Positions 2,636 to 6,412 of a stretch of DNA of 64,000 bases are shown piece after piece. The stretch spans positions 496,001 through 560,000 of the forward strand of contig JAJTBS010000002.1 of NCBI GenBank assembly GCA_021286765.1, in the 5' to 3' direction. The translations under genes and the position numbers were made by a program. The notes below the pieces were generated by a model. It was not told the origin of the DNA, did no database searches, and saw nothing but the letters and a program-made list of their open reading frames with translations. This DNA is from Holophagaceae bacterium. Its GTDB lineage: Bacteria > Acidobacteriota > Holophagae > Holophagales > Holophagaceae. Position 1 is the stretch's first letter; each line of letters begins with the position of its first letter.

Positions 2636-4177
2636 ATGAACGCCTCGGAGGATGCCCTTCTGCTCTCGCCCCTGCTGGAACTCAGCCACGCCCTGGCGGC
2701 TTCGGACATCCGCTCAGCGCTGCCCCGGGCCCTGGAGATCCTGTCGGAGGCCTTCGGGGCTCTGAACGGGGCCATCCTCCTGGCGGACGAGGAGGGCCGC
2801 GGGCTGCGCATCGAGGCGGCGCGCGGCCTGTCCAGGCAGGCGGCGGAGCGGGCCCACTACAAGGCAGGGGAGGGCATCAACGGCCGGGTCCTGGTGAGCG
2901 GCAAGGCCGTGGTGCTGCCCCAGGCCAGTCAGGAGCCCCTCTTCCTGGACCGCACCGGCGTGCTCAGGGAGCAGAAACGGAAGAAGACGGAGCTCTCCTT
3001 CTTCTGCGTGCCCATCTTCCTGGACCAGAAGACCGCCGGAACCCTCTGCCTCACGGTGCCCTACGACAAACACCGCGACTTCGACCGGGACACCAAGCTG
3101 CTGCAGATCGCCGCCTCCATGGTGGGCTTGGCCATGAAGGTGGCCCGGCTCGTCGCCGCGGACCGGCAGCGGCTGGTGGAGGAGAATCAGCAGTTGCGCC
3201 TGGAACTTCGCGAACGGTACGACCTGCGCCACCTCATCGGGCACAGCCATGCCATGCAGCGGGTCTACGAGGCTGTGGCCCAGGCGGCGCCCAGCAGCAC
3301 CACGGTGCTCATCCGGGGCGAATCCGGCACCGGCAAGGAGCTGGTGGCCCACGCCCTGCATTACAACTCGCCCCGGGCTGAGAAGCCCTTCATCAAGGTC
3401 AGCTGCGGGGCCCTGCCGGAAAACCTCATCGAGTCCGAACTCTTCGGCTACGAGCCCGGTGCCTTCACGGACGCAAGGCACCAGAAGAAGGGCCGCTTCG
3501 AGCTGGCCCATGGCGGCACGCTGTTCCTCGATGAGGTGGGCGAGCTGTCCGCAGCCACCCAGGTGAAGCTGCTGCGGGTGCTGCAGGAGCGGGAATTCGA
3601 GCGGCTGGGCGGAGTGAGCCCCGTGAAGGTGGACGTGCGCCTCCTCGCCGCCACTCACCGCGACCTGGAGGCCGCCGTGCGGGCCGGGACCTTCCGCGAG
3701 GACCTCTACTACCGCCTGCAGGTCTTCGAAGTGTTCATGCCACCCCTCAGGGAGCGCCAGGCGGACATCCTGCTGCTGGCCGACCACTTTGTGGAGAAGG
3801 TGGCGGCGGCCCAGGGCAAGGACGTGCGCCGCATCTCGACCTCGGCCATTGACATGCTGGCGGCCTATCACTGGCCCGGCAACGTGCGTGAGCTGGAGAA
3901 CGCCATCGAGCGGGCCGTCCTCGTCTGCGAGGGCGGGGTCATCCACGCCCACCACCTGCCGCCTTCCCTGCAGACCGCGGAGGTCTCGGGAACCCTGCCG
4001 GGTACGGGACTCGGCGAGGCCGTGGCCGCCTTCGAGCGGGACCTGCTGCAGGACGCCCTGAAGTCCGCCCGGGGGAACCGCTCCCGCGCGGCCCGGCTGC
4101 TCCAGACCACCGAGCGCATCTTGAACTACAAGGTGCAGAAATACGGGCTGGAGCCCGAGCGCTTCCGGAATATCTAA
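2636..4177 (+). CDS. NifA-like sigma54-dependent transcriptional activator (GAF-AAA+-HTH)
   Basis: A 513-residue bacterial enhancer-binding protein. Residues about 14-175 form a GAF sensor domain of the NifA type (GEGINGRVLVSGKAVV, EPLFLDRTG). The AAA+ core has Walker A GESGTGKE (228-235), Walker B GGTLFLDE (293-300) and the YHWPGNVREL segment (411-420). A Fis-type HTH lies at about 478-500. The sigma54-contact loop reads GAFTDA (275-280) instead of the usual GAFTGA. It stands directly before amt-glnK, which points to nitrogen control. No nif structural genes are in the window, so the target regulon is unknown. The ATG follows a GGAG-like site. Confidence 0.88.
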   Translation: MNASEDALLLSPLLELSHALAASDIRSALPRALEILSEAFGALNGAILLADEEGRGLRIEAARGLSRQAAERAHYKAGEGINGRVLVSGKAVVLPQASQEPLFLDRTGVLREQKRKKTELSFFCVPIFLDQKTAGTLCLTVPYDKHRDFDRDTKLLQIAASMVGLAMKVARLVAADRQRLVEENQQLRLELRERYDLRHLIGHSHAMQRVYEAVAQAAPSSTTVLIRGESGTGKELVAHALHYNSPRAEKPFIKVSCGALPENLIESELFGYEPGAFTDARHQKKGRFELAHGGTLFLDEVGELSAATQVKLLRVLQEREFERLGGVSPVKVDVRLLAATHRDLEAAVRAGTFREDLYYRLQVFEVFMPPLRERQADILLLADHFVEKVAAAQGKDVRRISTSAIDMLAAYHWPGNVRELENAIERAVLVCEGGVIHAHHLPPSLQTAEVSGTLPGTGLGEAVAAFERDLLQDALKSARGNRSRAARLLQTTERILNYKVQKYGLEPERFRNI

Positions 4178-4178
4178 T

Positions 4179-4230
4179 ATTACGAAATTGTATCATATTT
4201 TAGATGATATTACATTTTTGTCGAATCAAT
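4179..4230 (+). promoter_or_regulatory. Candidate amt promoter sharing sequence with the NifA-like gene promoter
   Basis: TTGTAT (4188-4193), 17 bases, TACATT (4211-4216) repeats the spacing and form of the promoter at 2580-2608. The 20-mer starting at 4211 matches the one at 2573 in 16 of 20 positions, including a shared GAATCAAT. An imperfect inverted repeat (ATCAT 4192-4196, ATGAT 4204-4208) lies between the hexamers. Transcription from here would give amt a leader of about 250 bases. The rest of the 4178-4475 gap holds the two structured elements listed next. Confidence 0.5.
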
Positions 4231-4282
4231 CGGGGAGAGTTGTTGACTGTCGCGGCTATTAAATAGCCCAATATAAGCATTT

Positions 4283-4321
4283 AAAAAAGAGCGTGGTGCC
4301 GATGCCGGTATCGGCACGCTC
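4283..4321 (-). terminator. Minus-strand intrinsic terminator inside the regulator-amt gap
   Basis: Read on the minus strand, GAGCGTG plus CCGAT (4321-4310) pair with ATCGG plus CACGCTC (4303-4289), with a 3-base bulge. Six U follow (4288-4283). The U tract exists only in the minus direction although both flanking genes are on the plus strand. Either an unannotated antisense RNA ends here, or the hairpin is part of the amt leader fold. Confidence 0.5.
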
Positions 4322-4377
4322 CCTGCCAATGGAATCAGGCAGAGGGGCCGATGGTCGGCTCCGAGAACTGGGAGGGT

Positions 4378-4451
4378 TGGATCGGAGCACACACGACCGT
4401 GGCCTGGGCTGGAACAACGGATTCCCACCGTGCTCAGGCCACACCGATCCA
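4378..4451 (+). ncRNA. Structured RNA element immediately upstream of amt
   Basis: Two perfect nested 8-bp stems are visible. TGGATCGG (4378-4385) pairs with CCGATCCA (4444-4451), and GTGGCCTG (4399-4406) pairs with CAGGCCAC (4435-4442). An ACGG/CCGT tip (4417-4420 with 4428-4431) is possible, as is an alternative GAGCAC/GTGCTC pairing. A smaller CTGCC/GGCAG hairpin precedes it. The outer stem closes about 10 bases before the AAGGAGG ribosome site of amt (4462-4468). It may be a cis-regulatory leader or, with the minus-strand terminator, a small RNA on the other strand. It does not match the glutamine riboswitch core as I remember it. Confidence 0.45.
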
Positions 4452-4475
4452 CTGACCTGTGAAGGAGGACTTTTC

Positions 4476-6053
4476 ATGGACCGGCGGAAGCTCTACAGGC
4501 TTGTCGCAATGGCGGTGGCCCTCGCGGCCATGACGCCTTTGCTCTTTGCGGGCGATCCGAATGGTGGTGCTACGGGCGGCATCCAGAATGTCCCCGCTGC
4601 CACTGCGGGCGCTCCGACCATCCAGGAACTGGGTGCGGCCGTGGGCCAGACTCGGGTGGCGCTCAACTTTGTATGGGTTCTCCTCGCCGGCTTTCTCGTG
4701 ATGTTCATGCAGGCCGGCTTCGCGTTGGCTGAGACCGGCTTCACCCGCGCCAAGAATGCTGCCCACACCATGATGATGAACTTCATGGTCTACGGCATCG
4801 GCATCCTCGGCTTCTGGGCCGTGGGCTACGCCCTGCAGATGGGCGGCAGCGGGGCGCCGATGGGCGCGGCCCTCTCCGCTCCCGAGGGCATGTCGAAGCT
4901 CATCGGGCCCACCATCAATGGCAACGTCTGGGGGCTCTTCGGAGGTAAGGGATTCTTCCTGACCGGTGTGGCCTATGACGTCTCGGCCTTCGCCATGTTC
5001 CTCTTCCAGATGGTGTTCATGGATACGGCGCTCACGATTCCCACGGGCTCCATGGCCGAACGCTGGAAGCTGTCGGCGTTCATCATCTACGGCTTTGTCG
5101 CCTCCGCCTTCATCTATCCTGTCTTCGGATGCTGGGCCTGGGGAGGCGGCTGGTTGGCCTCTCTTGGCAAACTCGGCATGGGCCATGGATATGTGGACTT
5201 CGCAGGTTCCGGTGTGGTGCACCTCACTGGTGGTGTGATGGCCCTGACTGGCGCCATCGTACTGGGACCCCGTATCGGGAAGTACATCAAGGGAAAGGCC
5301 CAAGCCATCCCGGGCCACAATCTACCCATGGGTGTACTGGGTTGTTTCATCCTGGCCTTCGGCTGGTTCGGCTTTAACGCCGGTTCTACCCTCGCGGGGA
5401 CGGACCTCCGCATCGCCGTGGTGGCCGTCAACACCATGCTGGCCTCCGCTTCCGGAGCGGCCTTGGCCTACTTCTACACCTGGAAGAAGTTCGGCGCGCC
5501 CGACTTGTCCATGGCTGTGAACGGCATGCTGGCTGGTATGGTGGCCATCACGGCGCCTTGCGCCTTCGTCAACGCCCCGATCTCAGTGCTGATCGGAGCC
5601 ATCGCGGGCTTCCTGGTGGTGGCCGCCGCCCTGTTCATCGAGAACACGCTGAAGATCGATGATCCGGTGGGTGCTATTGCGGTCCATGGCGTGAACGGGG
5701 CCTGGGGTCTCATCGCCCTGGGGTTGTTCGCAGATGGCACCTACGGCCAGGGATTGAATGGGCCCGCTGGTGGTGTGACGGGCCTCTTCTATGGCGACTC
5801 CAAGCAGTTCCTCGCGCAGGTCATCGGCATCGGCGCCAACCTACTCTGGGTGGGGGTGACCAGCTTCACGCTCTTCAAGGTATTGGACAAGCTGATCGGC
5901 ATGCGGGTCACGCCCGAGCAGGAAATGGGTGGGCTCGACTTCCACGAGGTGTCGGCGCCAGCCTATCCGGGTGACGGCTCCACGGTGAACACACCGGTGA
6001 TGATCCTTCCCAAGCCCCTGACAACGACTGCACCGATTGGAGGTAAGGCATGA
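4476..6053 (+). CDS. amt: Ammonium transporter Amt
   Basis: A 525-residue Amt/Mep/Rh channel for ammonium uptake across the inner membrane. It starts with a signal peptide (residues about 1-25), followed by a short Gly/Ala-rich segment and 11 predicted helices. The pore twin histidines are visible as VVHLTGG (H249) and AVHGVNG (H404), and the periplasmic DFAGSG motif carries D241. The start at 4476 is fixed by AAGGAGG 8 bases upstream and by the signal peptide; the frame is open further upstream without coding character. The last four bases overlap the PII gene (ATGA), the usual amtB-glnK pairing. The NifA-like gene lies before it and a structured leader precedes the start. Confidence 0.96.
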   Translation: MDRRKLYRLVAMAVALAAMTPLLFAGDPNGGATGGIQNVPAATAGAPTIQELGAAVGQTRVALNFVWVLLAGFLVMFMQAGFALAETGFTRAKNAAHTMMMNFMVYGIGILGFWAVGYALQMGGSGAPMGAALSAPEGMSKLIGPTINGNVWGLFGGKGFFLTGVAYDVSAFAMFLFQMVFMDTALTIPTGSMAERWKLSAFIIYGFVASAFIYPVFGCWAWGGGWLASLGKLGMGHGYVDFAGSGVVHLTGGVMALTGAIVLGPRIGKYIKGKAQAIPGHNLPMGVLGCFILAFGWFGFNAGSTLAGTDLRIAVVAVNTMLASASGAALAYFYTWKKFGAPDLSMAVNGMLAGMVAITAPCAFVNAPISVLIGAIAGFLVVAAALFIENTLKIDDPVGAIAVHGVNGAWGLIALGLFADGTYGQGLNGPAGGVTGLFYGDSKQFLAQVIGIGANLLWVGVTSFTLFKVLDKLIGMRVTPEQEMGGLDFHEVSAPAYPGDGSTVNTPVMILPKPLTTTAPIGGKA

Positions 6054-6412
6054 GACTCATCACAGCCATCATCCGGCCGGAGAAACTCGAGGATGTGAAG
6101 ACCGCCCTTTTCGCTGCCGAGGTAACCGGCATGACGATCCTCCGCGTCGCGGGTCACGGCGGCGAAAAGATCGCCCTGGAGACTTACCGCGGTGCACCGA
6201 TGGTCTACGAGTTCCACGAGAAGATCCAACTGGAGATCGCCGTGTCGGAGCCGTTTGTCTCCGTCACCGTCAAGGCCATCCTGGATGCCGCAAGAACCGG
6301 GGAGGTCGGCGACGGCAAGATCTTCGTGCGCCCCCTGGAGCAGGTCATCCGCATTCGGACTGGAGAACTCGACAACGAGGCCCTGACCCCCGAGCCCATG
6401 CGCCAACATTGA
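6050..6412 (+). CDS. glnK: PII-family nitrogen regulator (GlnK-like) without the uridylylation tyrosine
   Basis: A 120-residue PII signal protein, translationally coupled to amt by an ATGA overlap and with its own GGAGG site. PII proteins sense 2-oxoglutarate and ATP/ADP and plug Amt channels. The start MRLITAIIRPEKLEDVKTAL and the C-terminal segment GDGKIFVRPLEQVIRIRTGE are standard. The T-loop reads YRGAPMVYEF, so position 51, Tyr in uridylylated GlnB/GlnK (YRGAEY), is Met here. Tyr53 is present but off position. The protein probably works by ligand binding alone, without GlnD modification. Its direct coupling to amt makes control of Amt the most likely role. Confidence 0.93.
   Translation: MRLITAIIRPEKLEDVKTALFAAEVTGMTILRVAGHGGEKIALETYRGAPMVYEFHEKIQLEIAVSEPFVSVTVKAILDAARTGEVGDGKIFVRPLEQVIRIRTGELDNEALTPEPMRQH

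Follow-up and report, generated by a model that had tools for sequence, protein, structure and literature searches.

A structured RNA element, probably cis-acting, in the leader of the ammonium transporter genes of Geothrix

A strongly structured stretch directly before an ammonium transporter gene, noticed in a preliminary description of 64,000 nucleotides of Holophagaceae DNA (hereafter the window), raises the question of whether the amt-glnK transcript carries a regulatory leader RNA and, if so, of which kind and acting at which step. The answer depends on where the transcript starts, on which strand the structure is formed, on how it is conserved among relatives, and on what occupies its place in species that lack it.

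The amt-glnK locus and its promoter

The following features surround the structured stretch:

2636 to 4177, plus strand: gene for a NifA/NtrC-like sigma-54 activator of the GAF-AAA+-HTH type (NCBIfam nifA-like profile, E 3e-146, under the NifA cut-off)
4181 to 4192 and 4211 to 4222, plus strand: putative tandem activator sites TACGAAATTGTA and TACATTTTTGTC, 30 bp apart
4313 to 4326, plus strand: putative sigma-54 promoter GGCACGCTCCCTGC (GG at -24, GC at -12), conserved in the leaders of the genus
4462 to 4468, plus strand: amt ribosome-binding site AAGGAGG, from the sequence
4476 to 6053, plus strand: amt, ammonium transporter, starting at ATG 4476 (TIGR00836 above cut-off)
6050 to 6412, plus strand: PII/GlnK-family regulator (profile match)

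In about 30 congeners, an orthologue of the NifA-like gene precedes this leader as well, and torF is also found downstream of the leader with amt and the PII/GlnK gene. Genes for Amt proteins of two different types follow the structured element; in several species, a stand-alone short ORF resembling the Amt N-terminus follows it. At loci L057-L067, one type of promoter and leader serves Amt proteins about 77-87% or about 41% identical to that of the window, and the order of torF, amt and glnK differs. The first ORF after the leader at L057, L059, L060, L061, L063 and L064 is a stand-alone one of 50-66 aa (MNRRTLYR...), similar to an Amt signal peptide and followed by torF and a different amt; it is perhaps the remnant of a lost amt, or a retained small protein.

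The sequence at 4313-4326 is very probably the sigma-54 promoter of amt. It combines the -24 GG/-12 GC spacing with activator sites upstream, RpoN is encoded in the genome, and this is the sole perfect match there to the extended sigma-54 pattern; leaders of the genus share the consensus GGCA[C/T]..CCTGC. The window holds five TACAAWWTTGTA sites against 0.28 expected, and a pair of them, 30 bp apart (29 in G064), lies upstream of the sigma-54 promoter in 24 of the 26 genomes examined. The two sites are about 100 and 130 bp from the promoter in 23 of these genomes, and the pair of G004 lies much further upstream. The product of the adjoining NifA-like gene is the likely activator of this promoter; judging from the conserved anatomy, it probably binds the two sites within 4181-4222 and, once bound, would probably switch on transcription. 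A second TACAAWWTTGTA pair, also 30 bp apart, precedes the NifA-like gene itself (2573-2584 and 2603-2614), which suggests autoregulation. A strong inverted repeat (GAGCGTGGTGCCGAT..ATCGGCACGCTC, 4289-4321) overlaps the -24 half of the promoter and was not seen in those relatives' promoters that were read.

Transcripts from sigma-54 promoters start about 12 nt after the -12 element. The promoter initially proposed at 4188-4216 did not hold, as our scan gave no sigma-70 promoter on the plus strand and this candidate overlaps the conserved activator sites. Given that overlap and the conservation of the sigma-54 site, the amt transcript should start near 4338, 12 nt past the -12 element.

Fold, strand and conservation of the leader element

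A transcript from near 4338 would carry two structures, hairpin A and then an element that we call P1-P3, followed by the amt ribosome site:

4344 to 4362, plus strand: hairpin A, GGGGCCGA-UGG-UCGGCUCC, near the predicted transcript 5' end and present in 25 of 25 leaders tabulated
4378 to 4451, plus strand: element P1-P3 (z = -4.4; 12 carriers)
4378 to 4385 with 4444 to 4451, plus strand: P1, the outer stem, exactly 8 bp, U4378-G4385 paired with C4444-A4451
4399 to 4406 with 4435 to 4442, plus strand: P2, the inner stem, exactly 8 bp, G4399-G4406 paired with C4435-C4442, spanning 4399-4442
4416 to 4426, plus strand: invariant apical-loop sequence AACGGAUUCCC (A[A/C]CGGAUUCCC), the same in 12 of 12 carriers

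The two perfect 8-bp stems of the preliminary description are thus exact. Folding of the 74-nt element gave -34.0 kcal/mol on the plus strand (z = -4.4), a stability equalled by none of 200 shuffles, compared with z = -2.2 on the minus strand. Addition of 10-19 nt of flank on each side left a z of only -1.6, implying that the excess stability resides in the element itself. The z-score was lower on the plus than on the minus strand in 10 of the 12 carriers, and G-U cells outnumber A-C cells in the stem columns; both observations leave without support the antisense small RNA that had been suggested as one identity of the structure. No intrinsic terminator was found in the plus-strand leader, where no T-run follows the stem.

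Across the carriers, P1 has 7-8 bp (12 bp in G019), P2 has 7-8 bp and P3 is short, while the internal loop between P1 and P2 is one-sided, 8-13 nt long, and variable in length and sequence. Pairing near the loop is ambiguous in the window and in G019, G028 and G064, for which the energy model favours an inner hairpin. When whole leaders were folded, other pairings competed with P1 in several carriers, and the P1 values of G019 and G028 are unreliable in these folds, the longer stem having been mis-indexed. In the window, the outer stem closes 10 bases before AAGGAGG, as first described, and the distance is 10-14 nt in the 10 carriers measured.

The alignment of carriers contains compensatory changes in P3, the inner pair of which is U-A, A-U or G-C depending on the species. 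P1 and P2 hardly vary and have no covariation support of their own; being nearly invariant, they rest more on stability and conservation. The apical loop stays constant while the adjacent P3 bases and the internal loop vary. The whole element is identical in four species (G006, G008, G017 and G025) whose nifA four-fold sites are 84-89% identical, and for most pairs identity is only about 45-65% between nifA and the promoter. In the most distant comparisons, the element taken as a whole is no more identical than four-fold sites are, which implies constraint on the stems and loop and not on every base.

Hairpin A also shows pair changes across 25 leaders, with one pair appearing as C-G, U-G or U-A and another as G-C, A-U or G-U. 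Its outer seven pairs hold nine G-T cells against one A-C cell, which points to an RNA of the plus strand and not to a DNA operator, although these counts are only a leaning since the sequences are related. The idea that hairpin A alternates with another hairpin, B, was rejected, as their complementarity averaged no better than that of shuffles in 27 leaders.

Conserved structured leader RNAs are recognized by 5' leader position, here seen in 12 carriers, and by compensatory changes, here in P3 and hairpin A and of modest weight given the few varying pairs. P1-P3 is therefore very probably a conserved cis-acting leader RNA, in keeping with the structured amt-glnK leader RNA of the preliminary description; that proposal was to fall if related genomes showed no compensatory substitutions, and they do show them.

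Distribution among genomes

The element was found at the same place and in one copy per genome in 12 of 47 genomes of the genus Geothrix (G000, G006, G007, G008, G014, G017, G019, G024, G025, G028, G063 and G064). A DNA similarity search returned 11 further congeners, among them G066, which shares only 29 bases around hairpin A. A covariance model (R1) matched 13 genomes of the genus, and the same 13 and no others among 396 genomes of the phylum; the match in G069, with hairpin A present and the P3 loop absent, was left out of the carriers. A wider model (R2), built from hand-trimmed, equal-length sequences, brought up no further convincing copy elsewhere in the genus or in the family, and the 396-genome phylum sample contained no copy outside Geothrix. 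Scanning 84,980 species genomes with a pattern returned 49 stretches; the ones outside Geothrix had model scores at chance level. Better-scoring matches in G030, G035 and G026 were set aside as they do not have the P3 loop; there (L167, L168 and L169, near 1501-1546), a shape resembling P1, the internal loop and P2 (GGATCGGAGCAGGTCGCGGCA...) precedes a probable response-regulator gene.

No Rfam 15 family matched the window at gathering level, and lax thresholds applied to the leader and its relatives gave chance-level matches in the element; the check for a known family, proposed at the outset, was accordingly negative. Among the papers searched, none described an RNA of this kind in Geothrix. 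P1-P3 is restricted to the genus Geothrix and is unlisted in the RNA-family catalogue.

On the tree of the activator gene, the element is patchy, with at least four gains or losses needed, implying that it is dispensable or exchanged between species. Several losses or gains would suit a passive 5' structure, in which hairpin A and P1-P3 stabilise the mRNA or space the ribosome site with no regulatory role, and stable hairpins at 5' ends commonly protect mRNA. However, a passive structure would not call for a loop invariant over 11 nt or for an element identical in four species, and we consider this explanation distinctly unlikely.

A proposed former upstream start and the readings of the element

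In six clade members that do not have the element (G005, G013, G015, G033, G036 and G066), an upstream AUG or GUG is in frame with the main ORF; it lies 39-42 nt from where the hairpin A core begins, and its Shine-Dalgarno sequence matches at 5 of 6 positions. Sister species with and without the element thereby provide a natural experiment on its role. In the carriers, a GUG lies at the matching place (+42 in G007, +50 in G019 and +51 in G064), and the alignment sets MAWHAD of G015 against VAWTVL of G007. The 5' strand of P1 aligns with the upstream Shine-Dalgarno sequence of the sister species and the 5' strand of P2 with their start codon, so that GUG 4399, within P2, is the counterpart of that codon, which is AUG in most sisters.

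Translation from this GUG could in principle produce a leader peptide, with conserved codons, that couples to or attenuates the downstream gene. The frame from GUG 4399 runs for 18 codons in the window, ending at 4454 before the main start, and in G007 and G064 it enters the main ORF. Four carriers of the G006 type, however, read GUG GCC UGA, in which the third codon is a stop; length differences that are not multiples of three move the frame relative to the invariant loop, and the ACC/CCC/CUC changes alter the amino acid while P3 mostly stays paired. The inconsistent frame argues against a conserved peptide, which we regard as very improbable, and for conservation of the RNA; it further suggests that an upstream start of earlier use is now shielded by the element.

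A leader element that shields the upstream start and acts in cis on translation initiation is the reading that we favour, tentatively and at somewhat less than even confidence. P1 and P2 would hide the upstream start and so direct ribosomes to the Amt start; the invariant apical loop might adjust this shielding, either as the surface touched by a trans factor or through a tertiary contact. Because the stem does not include the main ribosome site, any effect on the Amt start would be indirect. Stated more broadly, the leader element probably helps to set where or how well ribosomes start on the ammonium-uptake genes. A stronger version, in which a nitrogen metabolite or PII-linked factor binds the invariant loop and toggles between upstream and main start, would make this a new nitrogen-sensing RNA class of Acidobacteriota, and appears highly unlikely.

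The constancy of the loop A[A/C]CGGAUUCCC amid changing P3 neighbours and internal loop would also be consistent with an RNA-binding protein that recognizes the apical loop on P2-P3 and controls translation or decay, the upstream start then being irrelevant. Simple hairpin elements confined to one locus and one genus are often protein sites. This explanation nevertheless comes with no candidate protein, and we judge it unlikely, if credible. CsrA, hinted at by GGA motifs, is excluded because its gene is missing from nine of the 12 carriers (PF02599 absent in G000 and eight others); csrA loss is lineage-specific, the regulator being usually conserved and present in 33 of 47 congeners. A search for ANTAR proteins (PF03861), whose targets carry two hexaloop hairpins ahead of a terminator, had no match in 16 genomes, with the control search equally silent; the plus-strand leader has no terminator.

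A riboswitch that senses nitrogen status through a small molecule (glutamine, glutamate, 2-oxoglutarate or ammonium) would fit the location before amt-glnK, the invariant loop sequence and a candidate contact, GGGA-UCCC, between the loop and a segment upstream of P1. As a pseudoknot, this contact was rejected: its positions are either invariant or mismatched, with no covariation. Against a riboswitch stand the lack of any match to an Rfam riboswitch, the variable internal loop of 8-13 nt, the single copy per genome in a single genus, and the failure to find an alternating expression platform, the hairpin A/B switch having failed its control. A riboswitch is thus improbable here, and shielding of the upstream start remains our preferred reading.

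Among the closest known systems are the glnA (RF01739) and Downstream-peptide (RF01704) RNAs, which, like P1-P3, lie in the leaders of nitrogen genes, including amt, PII genes and short ORFs (PMC2864571, PMC6316151); both are glutamine riboswitches and are reported to occur only in cyanobacteria (PMC6316151). Neither model matched at gathering level, nor up to E 10 on 4178-4500, bearing out the early impression that known glutamine riboswitch cores are not matched, and P1-P3 differs from them in forming a single hairpin column whose internal loop is one-sided. Acido-1 (RF01686), a small RNA of Acidobacteria, overlaps the leader weakly at 4341-4398, but the score of 16 bits (E 0.84) is below the cut-off of 50, and the leader is not a member. 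The locus shares with other sigma-54 amt-glnK promoters of the NifA/NtrC type the enhancer-type activator, tandem sites, the -24/-12 promoter and the order of amt then PII gene; what sets it apart are the neighbouring activator gene and the conserved RNA structure of the leader, such that activator, paired sites, promoter, leader RNA and amt-glnK form a complete sigma-54 circuit. As in leaders that occlude a ribosome-binding site, a stem lies over a translation start region; here, in contrast, the covered start is upstream and apparently degenerate, and the stem does not reach the main ribosome site. P1-P3 belongs to the known kind of cis-acting leader RNAs as a new, genus-restricted case, and with it the nitrogen regulation of Acidobacteriota gains a well-delimited leader RNA that the catalogue does not list.
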